Shown: piece by piece, positions 4,488 through 37,792 of the stretch
How the letters are laid out: every line of letters starts with the position of its first letter
Position numbering within the stretch: the stretch's first letter is position 1
Source: a bacterium
Lineage (GTDB): Bacteria > Planctomycetota > SKW154 > DAOVDS01
Length of the DNA: 38,305 bases
Assembly (NCBI GenBank): GCA_030669415.1
Contig: DAOVDS010000004.1
Location: forward strand, 1-38,305
Direction of reading: 5' to 3'
The notes under the pieces: generated by a model
Told to the model about the DNA's origin: nothing
The model's input: the letters and a program-made list of their open reading frames with translations, nothing else
The model's database searches: none
Translations under genes and position numbers: made by a program

Positions 4488-4937
4488 TTATGCGCTGACC
4501 TGCGTGCCGGACTGGGCGCCGAGTGCCTCTCTGAGCTGCTGGCGGCTGATTTGTCCTATGGCAATCAGGAGCTCGCCCAGGCGCGGGTTAATGCCTGTTT
4601 TGCGAAGAAGCTGCTGGCGCCTGAGCGCCTTTGTCAGGGTCGGGTTGTCGATGAAGCCGCGTTCCACCAGGATTTCTCCGAGCAGCTTCCTTCTCTCCCT
4701 CTTGTCCGCGGGCAGGACGGTCGTCTCGCCGGTCTTGCCCTGGAGGGAGAGGACTTCACGGACCTGGCTTTCCGTCATATATCCGCGCGCCAGTATAATG
4801 GAGCCGAGCCGGCGCCGGACGTTTGCGGTCTCCTGCTGGATATCAAGACACTGCTGGAGCTGCTCGCTGGTAATCATGCCCATACTCAGCGCGATGACCC
4901 CAAACATCTTGGCATTGGTAAGGCCCTTGTACTTCAA
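4488..4937 (-). CDS. Stand-alone MshEN/GspE-N-like repeat protein
   Basis: Repeats such as FGVIALSMGMITSEQLQQCLDIQ..LGSIILARGYMTESQVREVL and LGEILVERGFIDNPTLTKAL; TTG start with GGGAGG upstream. Confidence 0.7.
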   Translation of the reverse strand: MKYKGLTNAKMFGVIALSMGMITSEQLQQCLDIQQETANVRRRLGSIILARGYMTESQVREVLSLQGKTGETTVLPADKRERRKLLGEILVERGFIDNPTLTKALRRQQLLRKTGINPRLGELLIAIGQISRQQLREALGAQSGTQVSA

Positions 4938-18850: not shown

Positions 18851-20104
18851 TTATCCCTTCTGCGATTTAACAAGGCCGAATTTCTTCGGCACAGTGAACC
18901 TGTCTATAAGCGGAACGGCGGTGTTCATGATTAGAATCGAGTAGCAGACGCCTTCGGGATAGCCGCCCAGCTTGCGGATAACCGCGGTCAGCACGCCGGC
19001 GCCCACGCCGAAGATAATGGCCCCTTTCGCGGTCATGGGCGATGTCACCATGTCCGTCGCCATGAAGAAGGCACCCAGGACAAGCCCGCCGCTCAATGTC
19101 CAGAACGCGAGCCTCTCGAAGAAGCTGTACCTGGCATACCACGGAACCAGGCCCGTCGCAGACACGACCTCCAGCTCGACTTCCTTGTCTTCACGCCTCA
19201 CTTTCAGTTTCAGTTTCTGACCGTACAACAGCTTGCCAACTTCTCTGCGCAGGTTTTGCGAATTCTTTATTTCTACTCCGTCAAACTCTGTGACGACGTC
19301 ATCCTTTTTCACACCAGCCTTGGCCGCAGCAGTGCCGTCAAGAACGCCAGTAACTTTCGCACCTCCTGCGCTGTCGGCAACCTGAAGGCCGAGGAAAGGC
19401 TCCTTCGCCTTGTAGGGAATAACCATGCACAGGACAACGGCGGTCACGATAAACGAGACAGGCACGCGCCAGTCAACGTACTTTCGCACAATGAGGAACA
19501 GCCCGCCGATAAGCAGGAGCAGCGCCGAGGTCTCGCCAAGCGAGCCGGGCACATTTCCCATGAAGAGGTCCCAGACTGAATACTCCTGGGCCCCTGTGAC
19601 AGACATCTTGAGCGCGTTGAGCGGCGTCGCCGCTGAGACAACATCCACGCTTCTCGGCGTCGCCCAGCCGGCCGTCATTTGAAGCGACCACGCCGCCAGG
19701 ACAAAGGCGCGCCCCGCGAGCGCGGGGTTCCAGATGTTGCATCCCAGACCGCCGAAGAGGTGCTTGGCGGCCGCGATGGAGAAGAACGCACCGATTACAA
19801 CGAGATACCACGAGACGTTGGACGAGATGACCATGGCGAAGAGCAGGCCGGTTACTACTGCGGAGCCGTCGAGCGCCTGAATGACCGGCTTCCTGCGAAG
19901 CGCCAGAATCAACGCCTCGGTACCCACGCAAACGGCTATCGAGCCGAGGATAATCGCGATGGCACTCCCGCCGAAGAACCAGCAGCCGACAACCGCAGCC
20001 GGCGCAAGGGCGAGCACCACAGTCCACATTATCTTCGGGATTGACTCATCGCTTCGTATATGCGGTGATGTGCTGACAAGGAATCTCTTTTGCGCCTCTG
20101 CCAT
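18851..20104 (-). CDS. rnfD: Electron transport complex subunit RnfD with inserted PDZ domain
   Basis: RnfD body (GLGCNIWNPALAGRAFVLAAW...WTLSGGLVLGAFFMATDMVTSPMTAKGAIIFGVGAGVLTAVIRKLGGYPEGVCYSILIMN) interrupted by KEPFLGLQVADSAGGAKVTGVLDGTAAAKAGVKKDDVVTEFDGVEIKNSQNLRREV... Confidence 0.9.
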   Translation of the reverse strand: MAEAQKRFLVSTSPHIRSDESIPKIMWTVVLALAPAAVVGCWFFGGSAIAIILGSIAVCVGTEALILALRRKPVIQALDGSAVVTGLLFAMVISSNVSWYLVVIGAFFSIAAAKHLFGGLGCNIWNPALAGRAFVLAAWSLQMTAGWATPRSVDVVSAATPLNALKMSVTGAQEYSVWDLFMGNVPGSLGETSALLLLIGGLFLIVRKYVDWRVPVSFIVTAVVLCMVIPYKAKEPFLGLQVADSAGGAKVTGVLDGTAAAKAGVKKDDVVTEFDGVEIKNSQNLRREVGKLLYGQKLKLKVRREDKEVELEVVSATGLVPWYARYSFFERLAFWTLSGGLVLGAFFMATDMVTSPMTAKGAIIFGVGAGVLTAVIRKLGGYPEGVCYSILIMNTAVPLIDRFTVPKKFGLVKSQKG

Positions 20105-20222
20105 CGCCCTCTTCTCTCTGTAGTCAGTAACCAGCAATCAGTATCGAGTAGACTGAATAAACGCGCAGCAAGCTGCGCCGCTAAATTCTCATCCGTTTTC
20201 TTCCCACGCTACTTGCTGCCGG

Positions 20223-21608
20223 TCACTTGCTTGCAGTAGCTTCTTCTTTCTTCTTTTCTTCTTCCTGTGCCTTTTTCGCCTCGGCCTTGGCCCTTTCTTT
20301 CGCCTGGATTGCGCGCAGCTCGCCCTTGCCGTACTTGATGAACTGCACTATGGGGCGCTTGGCCGGGCAGACGTAGGTGCATACGCCGCACTCTATGCAG
20401 TCAAGCAGGTTGCTGGCCTTCGCCAGCGCGACGTTCTTGGCCTCGAGCAGAACTGACAGCCGGCTCGGCACAAGCCGCATGGGGCATGTATCCACGCAGC
20501 GCCCGCAGCGGATGCAGGGGCCGTACCTTCCCACCGGTTTCCCTTCCATCACGAGAATGCCCGAGGTGCCCTTTATTACGACCAGGTCGGTAGTGTACTG
20601 GGCAAGGCCCATCATCGGGCCGCCGAGGATAATCTTGTTTGCGCCCGCCTTTACACCGCAAAGGTCAAGAAGCTCCTTTATCGGGTGGCCGACAAGGGCG
20701 AGCAGGTTTTTCGGGTTCTCAATGCCTTCGCCCGTCACGGTGAGCACCCGCTCTATAAGAGGCTTATTGTACTTCACAGCTTCCCAGGTGGCGAAGGCGG
20801 TGCCGACGTTGTTTACCAGCGCCCCCACATCCATCGGCAGCCCGCCGGAAGGCACCTCGCGGTCGAGAATAGCTTTTATTAGCTGCTTCTCTGCGCCCTG
20901 CGGATACTTGACGGGCAGCGCCACGACCTTTATCGAGGGGTCCACCTTCGCGGCCGCCTCGCGCATGACCTTTATCGCATCAGGCTTGTTCGCCTCGATG
21001 CCGATGTAGCGGTCTTTCGCACCCACTACCTTGCACAGAATCCGCAGGCCCTGGATAATCCCGTCCGGCTTCTCGAGCATGAGCCGGTCATCGGCGGTGA
21101 GGTACGGCTGGCACTCGACGCCGTTGAGGATGAACGAGTTAATAGGCTTGTTCTTGGGCGGCGACACCTTCACGTGCAGGGGAAATGTCGCGCCGCCCAG
21201 GCCTACAATACCGGCATCCGTAATGCGCTTCTTGAGCTCGTCAGCACCGAGAGAGTCGATATCGGGAGTCTCTACATTGAGACCCTCCGCCCATGTATCT
21301 TCGCCATCGTTCTCGATAACCACCGAGGTCACGAGGTCGCCGAAGATGTGCTCGTAGGAGCCCACGTCAACGACCTTGCCGCTGACCGAACTGTGCACAG
21401 GCGCCGAGACGAAAGCGGAGGCTTCACCGACAACCTGGCCCTTCTTGACAGGGGCCCCTTTCTCGACAACAGGCTTGCATGGCGCACCGAGGTGCTGGGC
21501 CATGGGGATGCGAACCACCTTGGGGATGGGTGCGTTTTCTATGGCCTTGTCCTTGCTGAGGTGCTTCATGTCGTGAGGGTGAACTCCCCCGACGAAAGTG
21601 TGAGCCAT
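20223..21608 (-). CDS. rnfC: Electron transport complex subunit RnfC
   Basis: GGVHPHDMK...GLGGATFPLHVKVSPP...NGVECQPYLTADDRLM...CIRCGRCVDTCPMRLVP...CIECGVCTYVCPAKRPIVQ. Confidence 0.95.
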   Translation of the reverse strand: MAHTFVGGVHPHDMKHLSKDKAIENAPIPKVVRIPMAQHLGAPCKPVVEKGAPVKKGQVVGEASAFVSAPVHSSVSGKVVDVGSYEHIFGDLVTSVVIENDGEDTWAEGLNVETPDIDSLGADELKKRITDAGIVGLGGATFPLHVKVSPPKNKPINSFILNGVECQPYLTADDRLMLEKPDGIIQGLRILCKVVGAKDRYIGIEANKPDAIKVMREAAAKVDPSIKVVALPVKYPQGAEKQLIKAILDREVPSGGLPMDVGALVNNVGTAFATWEAVKYNKPLIERVLTVTGEGIENPKNLLALVGHPIKELLDLCGVKAGANKIILGGPMMGLAQYTTDLVVIKGTSGILVMEGKPVGRYGPCIRCGRCVDTCPMRLVPSRLSVLLEAKNVALAKASNLLDCIECGVCTYVCPAKRPIVQFIKYGKGELRAIQAKERAKAEAKKAQEEEKKKEEATASK

Positions 21609-21649
21609 TTCCCGTTCTCCGTGCAACTATCCGAGCTTCCGCCCGGCAG

Positions 21650-22717
21650 CTACTTCTCAGACTTCTCTGTGCCGCCCGAGAGGTCGAATCTCTCTACTTT
21701 GGCCTCTTCACGCAAGTGCTGTACAAGGTGGCCGATCTCATGGCCGTCCACATGCCTCCTCTCCTCCTCGTCGAGTAGAAACGGCTGCACTTCCTCGTAC
21801 TTGAGCTGGGAGACATCCTTGATATCCACGAGCTTCACAATGTGGAAGCCGAACCTCGACTGGACAGGCTCTGCAACCTCGCCGGGCTTGAGCTGGTCGA
21901 AAACCACGGGTACAAGCAGGTTGAAAAGAGCCCCCTTGGGGACCCAGCCCATGTCGAAGCTTTCCGCAGTGTAGCCCGCCCCGTATTCAGTGGCTATCTT
22001 CGCGAAATTCTCCCCTGCGCGAAGCTTCTTCACCACCTCGTCGGCGACATCCTTGGAGTTGAGCTTCTTCCACCGCTGCGACTTCTCCGTGAGCCCGGCA
22101 ATCTCCATGTCGATTTTCTGTTTCTGCTCGGCGGAGGCAATCCGCAGTTCGCACTTCAGTCGCGATATCTCACGTGCTATGCCATGCGCCATCTCCTCGG
22201 TCGAGACAAGTATGTGATGGACCCTGGCTATCCTGCCGGCATCCTTGGGGTATCTTCTCTCGAACAGGGCCTTCATGTTCTCGTCCGAGGCGCGCTTCTT
22301 CTTGACCAGCTTCTCCGCAAGAAGCAGCAGCCTGGTCTTGTAGGCGTTGTTCTTCTTGCGCTCCTCGATTGTGTATCCATAGCGCTTCAGCTCCGCTTCG
22401 AGCTCTTTGAGGTCGTTGTTGTAGTGGGCAAGTTCCTGCAGCAGGAGTTCGTTCTGGCGTTCAGTTACTTCCTTGCCGGAGACAGTCACTCCCGCCTTTT
22501 CGGCAGCCTGCTGGACGAGGAGCCAGTCTACGAGCTCCTCCATGAACTCGCGCGCCTTGCACTCGAAAAGGAGCTTCTCGAACTCGGCGCGGGTGGTCTC
22601 CTTCGCGTTTACCCGCAACACCACCCCGCCCCCGCCAGTTGGCTGCTGGGCATCCTGCGCCAGCACAATCAGGCACAGCGCAGTAACCAGGAACGCTGCC
22701 GCCGCTATTTTCTTCAT
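21650..22717 (-). CDS. Parvulin-type peptidylprolyl isomerase (PrsA/SurA-like), secreted
   Basis: Signal peptide; VHHILVSTEE...LRAGENFAKIATEYGAGYTAESFDMGWVPKG...VVFDQLKPGEVAEPVQSRFGFHIVKLVD. Confidence 0.88.
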   Translation of the reverse strand: MKKIAAAAFLVTALCLIVLAQDAQQPTGGGGVVLRVNAKETTRAEFEKLLFECKAREFMEELVDWLLVQQAAEKAGVTVSGKEVTERQNELLLQELAHYNNDLKELEAELKRYGYTIEERKKNNAYKTRLLLLAEKLVKKKRASDENMKALFERRYPKDAGRIARVHHILVSTEEMAHGIAREISRLKCELRIASAEQKQKIDMEIAGLTEKSQRWKKLNSKDVADEVVKKLRAGENFAKIATEYGAGYTAESFDMGWVPKGALFNLLVPVVFDQLKPGEVAEPVQSRFGFHIVKLVDIKDVSQLKYEEVQPFLLDEEERRHVDGHEIGHLVQHLREEAKVERFDLSGGTEKSEK

Positions 22718-22759
22718 AACTGCAACTCCAAATCTGAGGACATCTCCGGGCTTAGACTC

Positions 22760-24019
22760 TTAGTTCTCTTCCTGCTTCTCGACTGCGGGATTCGCCTTGC
22801 CCGCGGGCGCCGCTCCCTGCGGCACTTTCTGCTTCGCCTTGGTCTCCATGTATTTCAGAATCTGGATAAGCTGCGAATTGGAGAGCATGCCTTCCTGAAG
22901 CATGAGCATCCCCAGCAGCTTGTGTGTGCCTTTCCTGTCCATGTCCTTCTGCAGCTTGAGCGCCTCGTCAAGCTGCTCGTGGGTTATGAAGTCCATCCTT
23001 ATGGCAATCTCGCCGAAGAATTCCTTCTGTGCCTCGGTCTCGTCTGTGTAGCCATTCGGGTGTTTGCGGTGCCAGTGCCACGCAGTCTCGACCATGGTCT
23101 CCAGCTCGCCCAGCTCGTGCCGCCAGCCGAGTTCCTTCGCTGCCCTCTCGTTGCTCGCCACCAGTGACGGCGGGTCTCCCGGCCGCCTTGGCGCATCAAC
23201 CGCTTCAATCTCGGCGCCCGTAACCTTCCTGCAGACTTCAATCACTTCCCTTACGGAGAAGCCTTTCCCGCTGCCGAGGTTGAATATCTCAGGGCCGCAG
23301 AAGTGCTTCTCGTAGGCGAGCACGTGCGCCTTGGCCAGGTCAGTAACGTGAATGTAGTCCCGTATGCAGGTTCCATCCCCGGTGGGGTAATCAGTACCGA
23401 AGACACGTACCTTCTGCTTCTGCTTGAGCGCGACCTTGAGCACCAGCGGAATCAGGTGTGTCTCGATGCGGTGGGCCTCGCCGAGGTCGCCCTCGGGGTC
23501 GGCGCCAGCCGCATTGAAATACCTCAGCATGACGGGCTCGAGCCCGTGGGATTTCGCGTAGTCGAACATTATCTGCTCGATAAACCACTTGGACTTGCCG
23601 TAGGGGCTTATCGGCACGCAGACGTGTTTTTCATCTATCGGCAGGTACTGCGGCACACCGTAGGTCGCGGCGCTGCTGGAGAAGATAATCCGCCTGACAT
23701 CGAACTCTAGCATTGCGCGGAGCAGGTTCAGCGTGCCGAGCAGGTTATTGAGGTAGTACTTCTGCGGGTCTTCCACCGACTCTTCCACGTAGCAGCATGC
23801 CGCCATGTGGAAGACGCCATCTATCCTGTAGGTGGTGAAAAGACGGTGGAGGTCGTCGAAGCTCTTGAGGTCGCCCTCGACGAGGTGCCCGCCGTGAATG
23901 GCTTTGCGGTGGCCCTCCGAGAGGTTGTCAAACACTATCGGGTGATATCCCGACCTTGCCAGCTCCTTGACAATGTGGCTCCCGATATAACCCGCACCAC
24001 CTGTAACCAAAAGCGCCAT
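22760..24019 (-). CDS. galE: UDP-glucose 4-epimerase with C-terminal MshEN-like extension
   Basis: MALLVTGGAGYIGSHIVKELARSGYHPIVFDNLSEGHR...SSSAATYG...YGKSKW; tail after HRKHPNGY: FFGEIAIRMDFITHEQLDEALKLQ...LLGMLMLQEGMLSNSQLIQIL. Confidence 0.92.
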   Translation of the reverse strand: MALLVTGGAGYIGSHIVKELARSGYHPIVFDNLSEGHRKAIHGGHLVEGDLKSFDDLHRLFTTYRIDGVFHMAACCYVEESVEDPQKYYLNNLLGTLNLLRAMLEFDVRRIIFSSSAATYGVPQYLPIDEKHVCVPISPYGKSKWFIEQIMFDYAKSHGLEPVMLRYFNAAGADPEGDLGEAHRIETHLIPLVLKVALKQKQKVRVFGTDYPTGDGTCIRDYIHVTDLAKAHVLAYEKHFCGPEIFNLGSGKGFSVREVIEVCRKVTGAEIEAVDAPRRPGDPPSLVASNERAAKELGWRHELGELETMVETAWHWHRKHPNGYTDETEAQKEFFGEIAIRMDFITHEQLDEALKLQKDMDRKGTHKLLGMLMLQEGMLSNSQLIQILKYMETKAKQKVPQGAAPAGKANPAVEKQEEN

Positions 24020-24187: not shown

Positions 24188-25729
24188 ATGTCCGAAGCAA
24201 CGGGCCGTCAGCGCAAGCTGACTAAGAGCTTGAATTTCAGACTTGTTTTCTTTGTCTGCGTCTTTCTTCTGGTAGCTAAGGGTACGTTCAGCTACATGAT
24301 GACGAGGATGGAACACGACGAGCTGATTGCGGAAGTGGTTAACGGCTCCAGGCGCTTCAGTGAAGGCATAAAGCGCTCAACCCGCTACGCCATGCTCAAG
24401 TTCGACCGCGAGGCGATGCACCAAATACTCGAGGAGGTCGGCCGCCAGGAGGATGTTGAGCGAGTCCGCATACTCAACAAGGAAGGCGATGTCATTATAT
24501 CCACACGGTCAGAGGAAATCGGCCACAAGGTAGACAAGCGCGAAGAGGCCTGCTACGGCTGCCACGATGTTGACAAGCCGCTCGAGAAACTGCCCATGTC
24601 GAGAAGGTGGCGCATTTTCGGGCAGTCCGGAGACCGCCGGGTCGGCATCGTCGACCCGATATACAACGAGCCGGACTGCTGGAACGCGCCGTGCCACCAG
24701 CATCCCGAAGACAAGAAAGTGCTTGGCGTACTCGATGTGATAGTCTCCGTAAAGGAAGTTGATGAACTGCTTGCAGCCAGTGCCTGGCGGCGGGCGATTT
24801 TCACCATTCTTGCAATCATAATCGTCGGTACCGTCATAAGCTACTACCTTTACCGCACAGTCACCGTCCCTGTGCGCCGCCTTGTCAGCGGTACGAAACA
24901 CCTCGCTGCCGGCGAGCTTGATTACCAGATTGCCGTCACCGACGCCACGGAAATCGGCTACCTCGCCCAGTCGTTCAACAGGATGGCACGCACACTCAAG
25001 GAACAGCAGCAGCAGGTCGTGCGGCAGGAGAAGCTCGCCTCGCTCGGACAGATGGCCGCCGGCATAGTACACGAAATAAACAACCCCCTTTCGGGAATCC
25101 TCATCTATGTGCGCCTTATGCTCAAGCAGATTGAAGCCAAGACCTTCGACCCGGATGAAGGGGCAAGCAACCTGTCCAAGATGGAACGGGAAGTGCAGCG
25201 CTGCTCTCGAATAATCCGCAATCTCCTCGATTTCTCCCGCCAGACCCCACCGCAACTGCGCAGGGTGGACATGGCGCAGGTGATAGAGGAAGCCCTGCTT
25301 ATCCTCGGCCACCAGGCGAGCCTCCAGAACATCGAGGTGGTGAAGAAATACGCACCCGATGCGCCGGTTGTCGAGGCCGACTTCGACCAGATGCGACAAG
25401 TGCTCAACAACATGTTCACCAACTCCATGCAGGCGATGAAGGATGGTGGCAAGATAATCCTGCGACTCTCCAGAGCGAAACCTGAATTTCTACCCGGCGC
25501 CAGGCGAGTACTCAAAGTGGAGATAGAAGACACAGGGTGCGGCATACCGGATGAGAGTCTCGGCAACCTTTTCACGCCCTTCTTCACCACCAAGGAGAAG
25601 GGAGAGGGGGTCGGTCTCGGGCTGGCCGTTGTCTACGGAATTATCCAGCGGCACAACGGCAGGATCGAAGTCTCGAGCAAGGTCGGGCAAGGCACGGTCT
25701 TCACAATATACCTGAGAGCACAGCAATGA
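24188..25729 (+). CDS. Sensor histidine kinase with periplasmic CxxCH heme-like motif, HAMP, HisKA, HATPase
   Basis: EACYGCHD (24551-24565), CWNAPCH (24677-24697), HAMP, AAGIVHEINNPLSGIL H-box, GCGIPDESLGNLFTPFFTTKEKGEGVGLGLAVVYGI. Confidence 0.93.
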   Translation: MSEATGRQRKLTKSLNFRLVFFVCVFLLVAKGTFSYMMTRMEHDELIAEVVNGSRRFSEGIKRSTRYAMLKFDREAMHQILEEVGRQEDVERVRILNKEGDVIISTRSEEIGHKVDKREEACYGCHDVDKPLEKLPMSRRWRIFGQSGDRRVGIVDPIYNEPDCWNAPCHQHPEDKKVLGVLDVIVSVKEVDELLAASAWRRAIFTILAIIIVGTVISYYLYRTVTVPVRRLVSGTKHLAAGELDYQIAVTDATEIGYLAQSFNRMARTLKEQQQQVVRQEKLASLGQMAAGIVHEINNPLSGILIYVRLMLKQIEAKTFDPDEGASNLSKMEREVQRCSRIIRNLLDFSRQTPPQLRRVDMAQVIEEALLILGHQASLQNIEVVKKYAPDAPVVEADFDQMRQVLNNMFTNSMQAMKDGGKIILRLSRAKPEFLPGARRVLKVEIEDTGCGIPDESLGNLFTPFFTTKEKGEGVGLGLAVVYGIIQRHNGRIEVSSKVGQGTVFTIYLRAQQ

Positions 25730-27078
25730 AGAAACCCAAGCGAGTCCTGATAGTTGATGATGAAGAGATAATCAGGGACTCCATGGCGCAGTGGCTCGAG
25801 TCCTGCGGTTACGAGACCTACGTCGCATCCAACGGGAAAGAAGCAATCGAAGTGCTCAGGGACAAGCCGATTCCCGTTGTCCTGGCCGACCTCGTGATGC
25901 CTGTCATGGACGGAATAGCCTTCGTCAAGGAGGCCAGGCGCCTCTTCCCGAGTATCTCGGTTGTCATAATCACCGCACACGCCACCATAGAGACTGCCAT
26001 AACCGCCATGAGGGAAGGAGCGTGCGACTACGTCGAGAAGCCTTTCTGCCCGGAAGCTATCGAGCTGGTGGTCGCCAACCTCACGCAGCACCAGGAGCTG
26101 CTGGTGGAGAATGAGCGCCTGCGCCTGGCCCTGCACGAGAAGAACCGCCTTGAAGACCTCCTCTTCAAGAGCCAGAGCATGCAGCGCGTCGCGGACACTA
26201 TCCGCGCCGTGGCGCCCGCCAACACCACTGTCCTTATCGTCGGAGAAAGCGGCACAGGCAAGGAGCTTGTCGCAAGAGCCCTTCACAACCTGAGCGAGAG
26301 AAAGGGCAAGCCTTTCATAGCTGTGCCCTGCACCGCCCTGCCCGATTCCCTGCTCGAAAGCGAGCTCTTCGGACACGAGAAAGGGGCCTTCACCGGCGCC
26401 TCCTCACGCCGCAGGGGCCGGTTCGAGCTCGCCGATTCCGGCACCATCTTTCTCGATGAAATCGGTGACATCTCGAACAAGACCCAGCTTTCTCTCCTGC
26501 GTGTAATCGAGACGAAAGAGTTCACCCGCGTAGGCGGCAGCGAGCTCCTGAACTGCGATGTGCGCGTAATCTCCGCCACCAACCGAAACCTGCCCTCGCT
26601 CGTAAAAAGCGGCGCGTTCCGCGAAGACCTCTTCTACCGCCTCAACGTCGTCACCATCGAGCTGCCGCCCCTGAGAGAGCGCAGGGAAGACATCCCGCTG
26701 CTAACTCAGCACTTTCTCGAGAAGTTCTCGGCCGAGCAGAACAAGCCTGAAATCGAAGGGTTTGCACCGGAAGTGCTCAAAGCTCTCCTCGAATACGACT
26801 ACCCCGGCAACGTACGCGAGCTCGCCAACATGGTCGAACACGCCGTCCTCATGGCGGGGGGGACACAGGTGACACTCGAAGACCTGCCCAAGCCGCAAAA
26901 AGCCCTGGATGACACATACGCGCAGCCCCCTGCGGGCCTCACTCTGAGAGAAGTCGAGAGAATACAGATAGAGAAAACCCTCGAGCAAACAAAGGGTAAT
27001 CGTTCGAAAGCAGCCCGCATTCTCGGAATCGAACGTGCCACACTCTACAATAAACTGAAAGCCTACGGCTTGATGTAA
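25726..27078 (+). CDS. NtrC-family sigma54-dependent response regulator
   Basis: REC domain; GESGTGKELVARALH; GAFTGA; Fis-type HTH KAARILGIERATLYNKLK. Confidence 0.96.
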   Translation: MKKPKRVLIVDDEEIIRDSMAQWLESCGYETYVASNGKEAIEVLRDKPIPVVLADLVMPVMDGIAFVKEARRLFPSISVVIITAHATIETAITAMREGACDYVEKPFCPEAIELVVANLTQHQELLVENERLRLALHEKNRLEDLLFKSQSMQRVADTIRAVAPANTTVLIVGESGTGKELVARALHNLSERKGKPFIAVPCTALPDSLLESELFGHEKGAFTGASSRRRGRFELADSGTIFLDEIGDISNKTQLSLLRVIETKEFTRVGGSELLNCDVRVISATNRNLPSLVKSGAFREDLFYRLNVVTIELPPLRERREDIPLLTQHFLEKFSAEQNKPEIEGFAPEVLKALLEYDYPGNVRELANMVEHAVLMAGGTQVTLEDLPKPQKALDDTYAQPPAGLTLREVERIQIEKTLEQTKGNRSKAARILGIERATLYNKLKAYGLM

Positions 27079-35524: not shown

Positions 35525-35554
35525 TTGACGGGACATCCCGGCCTCTCTTATCAT
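35525..35554 (+). promoter_or_regulatory. sigma70-like promoter (TTGACG-N18-TATCAT)
   Basis: The track start TTG at 35525 is the likely -35 box rather than a start codon. Confidence 0.45.
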
Positions 35555-35587
35555 AACTGGCCGAAGCTCTTCCCTGGAACCGGCGTT

Positions 35588-37792
35588 ATGTACCGAGTCC
35601 TTTTGCTCTTGTTTCTCCTTGCGGCTGTGGCGGGGTATCTCGATACAGCGCAGGCGCAGGAGACTGCACAAACCTCCCCTGCCCCGGATGCGTCCTCGCC
35701 ACGCGAGAAAGTCCAGCTCAGCTCGTGGGTCAAGGAGCTGCGCCAGAAAGAGAATGTCGCGATATTGTTCGGGAACGTCCGGGTCAGCAAGGGTAAGCTG
35801 AGCATACTTGCCGATGCCGTGGTTGTGTGGTTCAAGGAGGACGGCTCCGGTGTAAGCGAGATATACGCCGAGGGCGCCATTCTCATGACTGACGGCAAGA
35901 ACAGGATTTCAGCACAGGCGGCTTACTACAGCTTCGAGACAGGCACGGCCAGGATTACGCAGGCGCGGGTGCACACGACGCAGAGGTCTCTGAGCGACCT
36001 GACTGTCTTCGAGCGCAGCAAGGAGTCCGGGCCGGTCGCCGCGAAGAAGGCGCAGCCGGAAATCAGTCTCTACTTCCGGGCCGAGAAGCTGCGGACGGAA
36101 CGTCCGACGCGCTACGTCGCCGAGAAGCTGACGCTCTCGACCTGCGAATGCCCGCACCCGCACTGGGGAATACGGTGCCGCCGGGCCACCATCTATCCGG
36201 GAGGCACATTTGAGGCGAGCGGCAATCAGCTCTTCATCGGCCCGGTGAAGATACCGTTTTTTAACGTCAGGTTCGAGCCTGACTGGCGCATGCCGCTCTA
36301 CCGGCTCAGAGTCGGCTCAAGCAGCGACAAGGGGAGCTTCAGGCTTTCGCGCTGGCAGCTTGTCGTGGAGCCCAACTACCGCCTCTTCTGTGACCTCGAC
36401 ACCTACAACAAGAACGGGACAGGCAGCGGCGCGGTCTTCGAGTACAAGGGCCGCGCATACCCGTGGGGAGGCTACCTCGAGACCTACGCAATCAACGACC
36501 GGGAACCACCTGCGGGCGTCAAACACTATCGCTACCGGCTCAAGTTCCTCCACGTGCAGAAGCTCCCGGGCGAGGTCGGGATGACTCTCGAGTACTCGAA
36601 GACTACGGACCAGGACTTCCTCAAGCAGTTCTTCGAGCGTGAATACAGGAAGGGACGCGAACAGGAGACCTATGCCTACTTCAGGAAGACGCACGGCAAC
36701 CTCGGCGCCAGCCTCCTAACCAGCACGCGCACGGAGAAGTTCAAGACAGTCACCCAGCACCAGCCGCAAGTACGCGCATACGCCATATCAAGGGAACTGC
36801 CGGGCGGTTTCTACCTGAGCGCGGCACTGCGCAATGAGAAGCTTCTCAGGCAGTACGCCCAGATGCTGGCGCTGCCGGACGAAGAGGTCGAGCGCCATGA
36901 TGTGCTGCTAACGCTTGACCGCCCGCTGGGCATGGGACAGATTCTTCGCCTCAAGCCTCGAATCGATGCAAGATACACACACTACAACATAAACGCAGCC
37001 GACTCGCAGAACGTTGACCGGGAAGTAGTGAAAGTGAGCTGCAGCGCGAGCACGCGGCTTTCCCGAATCTACCGCACGAGCAGCAAAAGGCTGAAAATCG
37101 ATGGCCTCAAACACATTATTGAGCCGCAACTAACATACGAGAATACTTACGAAAACGACAACGACCCTGCCAGTCTCTTCCAGTTCGACGAGGTGGATTC
37201 AATACGCAAGTGCGAAAAGCTCACGCTCTCGCTTACGAACCGTCTCGACACCCGCCGCGAGGTGAAAGAGGTTCCGAGTGTTGTCAGCCTGCTCGACTGG
37301 CGGCTTCAAATCCCCTACTACGCCAAGCCTGCGCGTGACAACGGCGGGGAGAGCTACGGCCCGCTCGAGAGCCGGCTGGAGGTGTCGGCAAGCCCTTACC
37401 TGACTATCCGCTCGGACCTCGCCTACGACACCGCCCACAGGCACATGCAGAAAGGCACCATCGACGCGACGGTGCGCAGTCCGGGCATCTGGCAGCTCTA
37501 CCTGGGCACTTTGTATGCGGCAGGCGAAGACACTATTGGCACACTGGGATTGTCCGCCAGGCTGTCGCCGAAATGGTCAGTCTCAGTAAGGCTCCAGCAC
37601 AACCTGTCGGCGGGCCGCTACGTCAGCAAGACGTTCACCTTGACAAGAAGGTTCCACTGCTGGATAATGGAAGCAGGCGTAGTTTTGGAGCGTGACAAGG
37701 ATTCGCCGACCTACGTGTTCCTGATTTCGCCTGCTGCGCTGTTCAAGAAGGAGAAACTGAGGTTCACCGAGGAATCGACGTTCCTGAAATAG
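35588..37792 (+). CDS. lptD: LptD/OstA-like LPS-assembly outer-membrane protein
   Basis: N-terminal OstA-like repeat (ENVAILFGNVRVSKGKLSILADAVVVWF...ISAQAAYYSFETGTARI), long beta-rich C-terminus. Confidence 0.75.
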   Translation: MYRVLLLLFLLAAVAGYLDTAQAQETAQTSPAPDASSPREKVQLSSWVKELRQKENVAILFGNVRVSKGKLSILADAVVVWFKEDGSGVSEIYAEGAILMTDGKNRISAQAAYYSFETGTARITQARVHTTQRSLSDLTVFERSKESGPVAAKKAQPEISLYFRAEKLRTERPTRYVAEKLTLSTCECPHPHWGIRCRRATIYPGGTFEASGNQLFIGPVKIPFFNVRFEPDWRMPLYRLRVGSSSDKGSFRLSRWQLVVEPNYRLFCDLDTYNKNGTGSGAVFEYKGRAYPWGGYLETYAINDREPPAGVKHYRYRLKFLHVQKLPGEVGMTLEYSKTTDQDFLKQFFEREYRKGREQETYAYFRKTHGNLGASLLTSTRTEKFKTVTQHQPQVRAYAISRELPGGFYLSAALRNEKLLRQYAQMLALPDEEVERHDVLLTLDRPLGMGQILRLKPRIDARYTHYNINAADSQNVDREVVKVSCSASTRLSRIYRTSSKRLKIDGLKHIIEPQLTYENTYENDNDPASLFQFDEVDSIRKCEKLTLSLTNRLDTRREVKEVPSVVSLLDWRLQIPYYAKPARDNGGESYGPLESRLEVSASPYLTIRSDLAYDTAHRHMQKGTIDATVRSPGIWQLYLGTLYAAGEDTIGTLGLSARLSPKWSVSVRLQHNLSAGRYVSKTFTLTRRFHCWIMEAGVVLERDKDSPTYVFLISPAALFKKEKLRFTEESTFLK

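Follow-up and report, generated by a model that had tools for sequence, protein, structure and literature searches.

A predicted UDP-glucose 4-epimerase with a C-terminal MshEN-related tail, and the recurrence of this domain beside sugar-precursor enzymes and peptidyl-prolyl isomerases in the Planctomycetota

The window, i.e., the whole stretch of 38,305 nucleotides analysed here, derives from a member of the Planctomycetota and contains an open reading frame (ORF) whose product joins a sugar-nucleotide epimerase to an additional C-terminal domain (Table 1). One relative carries 48 copies of PF07596, which had no match in 14 controls, and this would fit the same phylum. The core of this product is predicted to be a UDP-glucose 4-epimerase (GalE), as it scores over the equivalog cut-off of TIGR01179 (428.1 bits, cut-off 262.3; aa 3-323, model positions 2-331 of 332), and the GGAGYIG and YGKSK (YxxxK) motifs are present. 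GalE enzymes are homodimers that supply UDP-galactose. An ordinary GalE ends at about 330 aa with no further domain, whereas the window protein has a complete catalytic core and, in the same uninterrupted ORF, a tail of 94 aa. An earlier note on this DNA had described a GalE with an extra C-terminal tail of the MshEN/GspE-N type, and the extension is real; the peptide that it quoted, FFGEIAIRMDFITHEQLDEALKLQ...LLGMLMLQEGMLSNSQLIQILKYM, lies at aa 334-391. Profile scans revealed no traffic ATPase domain in this product, in which the tail follows GalE instead.

Table 1. Coordinates of the GalE-tail ORF, its parts and the genes next to it in the window.
Feature	Position	Strand	Details
GalE + tail ORF	22760-24019	-	419 codons, ATG start, no internal stop
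GalE core, aa 1-323	23051-24019	-	TIGR01179
HKLG domain, divergent MshEN_N-like, ~aa 330-395	22835-23032	-	A1 profile, 104.9 bits
NF053729 match, aa 335-389	22853-23017	-	
Motif I, FFGEIAIRMDFITHEQLDEALKLQ	22949-23020	-	FFG...Q: lacks Arg and Gly10, retains Gly3 and Gln
Spacer, KDMDRKGTHK	22919-22948	-	10 aa, canonical 5
Motif II, LLGMLMLQEGMLSNSQLIQILKYM	22847-22918	-	LLG...M: lacks Arg and Gln
Low-complexity C-terminal end, aa 396-419 (~24 aa)	22763-22834	-	sequence; pLDDT under 50
Parvulin/SurA-type PPIase, signal-like N-terminus, next same-direction gene	21650-22717	-	PF13616, PF00639
rnfC	20223-21626	-	PF13375, PF01512
rnfD with inserted PDZ	18851-20137	-	PF03116, PF13180

The order galE/tail, peptidyl-prolyl isomerase (PPIase) and rnfC is common to the genome of the window (G000; 18851-24019, minus strand), G001 (L105/L106) and G011 (L097:8143-13284). 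The rnfD gene comes next in G000 and G011, and this order links the Rnf complex with a gene for envelope sugars. The RnfD-like protein of the window contains a PDZ_2 domain (aa 247-324) inside its NQR2_RnfD_RnfE membrane domain; the PDZ_2 domain is seemingly missing from the G011 homologue (L097:12277-13284), which is shorter. The window also encodes an LptD-like outer-membrane LPS transport protein (35525-37792, plus strand) and a histidine kinase (24188-25729, plus strand) that shows CYGCH and CWNAPCHQH in its sensor part, a possible c-type heme binding site; a gene for a sigma-54 response regulator (25726-27078) comes after it.

The isolated tail is recognized by NF053729, an NCBIfam model of the MshE-related c-di-GMP motif, with 38.3-39.8 bits, borderline over the cut-off of 38 (E 8.7e-10 at 38.3), and the whole GalE-tail protein scores 33.7 bits against the same cut-off. 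The Pfam MshEN model, which the earlier note had proposed as a check, matched neither the whole protein nor the tail even at E<=10, and thus this HMM would have overlooked the tail. A profile built from twelve tail relatives (A1) matched chains of Thermus PilF, PilB and Vibrio cholerae MshE in the PDB, the MshE chain with an E of 6.8e-05. When the profile of the tail subfamily, for which we have coined the name HKLG, was compared by hhalign with seven MshEN copies from the same genome, the probability was 98.1 and the E value 6.8e-14; NF053729 also matched all 12 HKLG members scanned. The PDB matches and the hhalign result therefore identify the HKLG domain, at the level of sequence, as a relative of MshEN, in agreement with the MshEN/GspE-N relationship that the earlier note had proposed.

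Designed PPR proteins returned by phmmer against the PDB were rejected as tail relatives, being chance repeat matches. The viral contigs scanned contained no tail relative, and in the contig profile scan the matches were limited to unfused GalE from proteobacteria plus a single distant SDR. AlphaFold2 modelled the single-sequence tail as four helices (tail residues 2-16, 22-34, 40-50 and 56-72; pLDDT 59), and a Foldseek search of the PDB with this model gave no significant match; for the full protein, a three-row model also reached a low confidence (pLDDT 52.6). We base no structural claim on these low-confidence models. The window's genome (4.15 Mb) has about 53 NF053729 matches (E<=1), some of them at positions 4503-4901 of the window (minus strand), and several relatives appear to have as many or more; in the 2016 MshEN paper, Myxococcus xanthus with 22 genes was the upper end.

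A canonical MshEN consists of two 24-aa motifs, RLGxx(L)(V/I)xxG(I/F)(L/V)xxxxLxxxLxxQ, with a 5-aa spacer, making a 53-aa unit (PMC5013675). The window tail aligns to both without gaps within the motifs (FFGEIAIRMDFITHEQLDEALKLQ, 10-aa spacer, LLGMLMLQEGMLSNSQLIQILKYM). Both Gly3 residues and most of the hydrophobic triads are retained, both Arg and one of the two Gln are missing, and the spacer has twice the canonical length; in motif I, Arg is changed to Phe and Gly10 to Asp with respect to the published consensus (PMC5013675). None of the three canonical features, i.e., an RLG...Q motif I, an RLG...Q motif II and a 5-residue spacer, is found in the window tail.

These deviations are not peculiar to the window copy. 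When 392 genomes of the phylum were searched with the A1 profile, this led to 60 strong members, distributed over 59 genomes; a few of the weakest are outliers. Arg is absent from position 1 of motif II in all 60, which have Leu, Met or Phe there, and position 24 of this motif is Gln in a single member, having been lost in 59. The spacer measures 10-11 aa in all 60, instead of the canonical 5, and usually ends in Gly-x-(x)-His-Lys/Arg; this conserved His-Lys/Arg ahead of motif II is a new feature with respect to canonical MshEN. Gly3 is invariant in both motifs and the motif-I Gln24 is kept in every member, while position 2 of motif I is Phe in 59/60, Leu21 is present in 56/60 and Arg in 21/60. 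When a published relaxed motif was tried, the motif II of none of the 60 members passed, and most of the own-genome MshEN copies tried failed too, and thus this motif discriminates weakly. By its own conserved residues and gene context, HKLG is a distinct MshEN subfamily as judged from sequence.

Canonical c-di-GMP binding by the HKLG domain is unlikely, because the spacer has 10-11 residues and the motif-II Arg and Gln, as well as the motif-I Arg of the window copy, are lost. The c-di-GMP control of polysaccharide precursor synthesis suggested by the earlier note is thus unsupported for the window copy, which lacks both Arg, one Gln and Gly10 and has a doubled spacer. The absence of binding residues, which the note had considered as a possible refutation, weakens the c-di-GMP part of its claim, and what stands are the Gly3 residues and most of the hydrophobic triads. 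It is still conceivable, albeit unlikely, that the tail is a c-di-GMP receptor with a relaxed motif that allosterically sets GalE activity, as MshEN does on NfrB. The relatedness to MshEN, the invariant Gly3 residues, the motif-I Gln and the 9 GGDEF proteins of the own genome are in agreement with this proposal, and so are the observations that Arg9 or Gln32 changes in MshE, taken singly, weaken c-di-GMP binding no more than about five-fold (PMC5013675), and that in NfrB more than one change is seemingly required to prevent it (PMC8669469). However, the motif-II Arg is gone in the entire subfamily and the Gln in all members except one, the spacer is doubled, and the window copy is also without the motif-I Arg and Gly10. 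In constructs of PilF GSPII-A, c-di-GMP binding disappeared with the loss of the motif-II Arg and Gln; Ser at the motif-II Arg position had this effect, and both Gln positions needed restoring (PMC12002112).

The MshEN of V. cholerae MshE (PDB 5HTL; PMC5013675) shares with the tail the two tandem 24-aa motifs, the Gly3/Leu/Gln framework and a helical layout, which in the tail is a prediction, but it is N-terminal on a secretion ATPase, has a 5-aa spacer with both Arg and Gln, and binds c-di-GMP, whereas the window tail is C-terminal on GalE, combines a spacer of 10 aa with a degenerate motif II and leaves no space for an MshEN_C subdomain. Escherichia coli NfrB also carries a C-terminal MshEN on a polysaccharide-making enzyme, but this enzyme is a glycosyltransferase of the membrane, its motif is fully conserved and its c-di-GMP binding has been demonstrated (PMC8669469), whereas the window protein is a precursor epimerase that is soluble and has a degenerate motif. 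Altered key residues are also found in Thermus PilF GSPII-A and Xanthomonas XpsE, both reported as c-di-GMP non-binders (PMC12002112, PMC5013675); these remain within traffic ATPases, whereas HKLG is a separate subfamily with its own residues and context. Fusions of MshEN to glycosyltransferases and many signalling domains were already known (PMC5013675), and in the open-licence literature we found no paper describing MshEN with GalE or KdsA.

The GalE-tail fusion, which the earlier note proposed to look for in other GalE proteins, recurs in other families of the phylum. HKLG is fused to GalE or a GalE-like SDR in 24 genomes of 8 families, i.e., in 23 of the 60 members (f1, f16, f19, f39, f52, f85 and f88) and in G001 (f2), where the fusion is split between two contigs: one of them ends within the tail that follows GalE, and another begins with the matching end of a tail, followed by a PPIase and rnfC. 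An SDR is fused to HKLG or located within about 210 nt upstream of it in 31/60 members, and KdsA in 3/60. A small free HKLG ORF lies directly after an SDR in G011, G029, G072, G090, G199 and G279, the protein of G011 having 93 aa. In G177 and G148, both genomes of one genus, the galE stop and the free-tail start overlap as ATGA (L165:4470-4850, L170:4660-5050), and thus a single frameshift separates the fused form from the free one. In the f50 and f61 genomes (L163:3084-4439, L161:5808-7130), the SDR is followed first by a class I/II aminotransferase and then by the free HKLG protein. KdsA, which produces KDO-8-phosphate for LPS, is fused to HKLG in G106 (TIGR01362, 355.8 bits, cut-off 314) and is followed by a free HKLG in G070 and G122. 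About 24/60 members have no sugar enzyme close by, some of them being contig ends or weak outlying members, and in some genomes the neighbours are unrelated (proB with a PHP-type gene, or a HAD hydrolase with secA). The link to polysaccharide precursors that the earlier note had drawn gains strength from the repeated occurrence of HKLG with GalE, UXS-type SDRs and KdsA.

A PPIase is encoded downstream of HKLG on the same strand in 35/60 members (32 parvulin/SurA-type and 3 cyclophilins), and none was detectable in the other 25, some of which are contig ends or weak outliers. In half of the members (30/60), HKLG is accompanied by both a sugar enzyme and a PPIase, the parvulin/SurA type standing after epimerases. 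The cyclophilins are restricted to the three KdsA cases, with an N-terminal membrane-anchor-like segment and, in two of them, TPR matches: the KdsA-HKLG fusion of G106 is followed by a TPR/cyclophilin, and the same order is found with free HKLG in G070 and G122. Many of the HKLG-linked PPIases begin with signal-peptide or lipoprotein-like segments, as judged by eye. The other own-genome MshEN copies checked had no PPIase or GalE homologue within flanks of up to 1.5 kb. Both the enzyme and the isomerase folds vary around a constant HKLG middle domain, and the two PPIase folds are unrelated.

The conservation pattern might also be read as that of a motif-I half-site, which would bind a different ligand, such as a mononucleotide or a sugar nucleotide, or would allow the tails of a GalE dimer to pair around a two-fold symmetric dinucleotide. 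We consider this rather improbable. It would agree with the universal motif-I Gln and Gly3, the nearly constant Leu21, the new His-Lys/Arg before motif II and the established homodimeric state of GalE, but HKLG also exists free and on KdsA, whose geometry differs from that of GalE, and the motif-I Arg is found in only 21/60 members, being Phe in the window. Even less credit deserves a purely structural tail, i.e., a bundle of helices for the stability or oligomerisation of the enzyme, with no ligand or partner. The four predicted helices and the fusion to unrelated enzymes would suit such a role, but the free versions of 72-137 aa, some of them with no enzyme nearby, the recurrent PPIase neighbour and the strong residue conservation, including His-Lys and Gly, make it very doubtful.

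Among the fused members of one family, pN/pS ranges from 0 to 0.16 in the tail and from 0.02 to 0.09 in the GalE core, the linker between them being more variable in several pairs; the tail is under purifying selection. Since other families share the fusion, and the tail pN/pS in close relatives is within or near the values of the GalE core, the fusion is not an assembly artefact, and an artefact or a neutral read-through limited to this assembly is hardly credible: the assembly has 448 contigs and 5.6% contamination, and galE and the free tail of G177/G148 are one frameshift from fusion, but the fusion recurs across 8 families in independent genomes and selection acts on the tail. In a tree of 52 SDRs, the fused GalEs fall in several groups, but a single clade of them was not rejected (p-AU 0.153), and thus we make no claim of convergence within GalE. 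The fusion to KdsA is independent of the others, because this enzyme is unrelated to GalE. The G234 and G289 proteins are very distant SDRs (branch 3.11).

The reading that we favour, with some reserve, is that HKLG would be a cytoplasmic docking or regulatory element that acts on or with a sugar enzyme, and that the PPIase would be the exported arm of the same module. A divergent domain of the MshEN_N type, predicted to be helical, may have become a dedicated accessory module for envelope-sugar precursor enzymes, within a triad of sugar-precursor enzyme, HKLG domain (free or enzyme-fused) and exported PPIase. Docking might be homotypic or involve a partner from the envelope machinery, and HKLG would tie the supply of UDP-galactose or KDO to envelope/LPS assembly, with the neighbouring PPIase serving the periplasmic side of the same process. 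Direct contact is impossible between a tail in the cytoplasm and a PPIase that is exported, and thus the link between HKLG and the PPIase would be at the pathway or operon level. SurA-type PPIases help outer-membrane proteins such as LptD. The associations themselves are observed, and envelope/LPS assembly is the theme that the associated genes appear to share. More tentatively, there may be a phylum-wide envelope-biogenesis module, in which an MshEN descendant that does not bind c-di-GMP (or retains a half-site) couples interchangeable sugar enzymes to interchangeable exported PPIases.

Annotations tend to label MshEN domains as c-di-GMP receptors because of their name, and NF053729 carries that description. 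The HKLG subfamily, with its lost motif-II residues, its purifying selection and its association with envelope-sugar enzymes and folding chaperones of unrelated folds, is a warning against such annotation. It also provides a Rosetta-stone lead on how the supply of precursors may be coupled to the assembly of the cell envelope, a structure that is poorly understood in this phylum.
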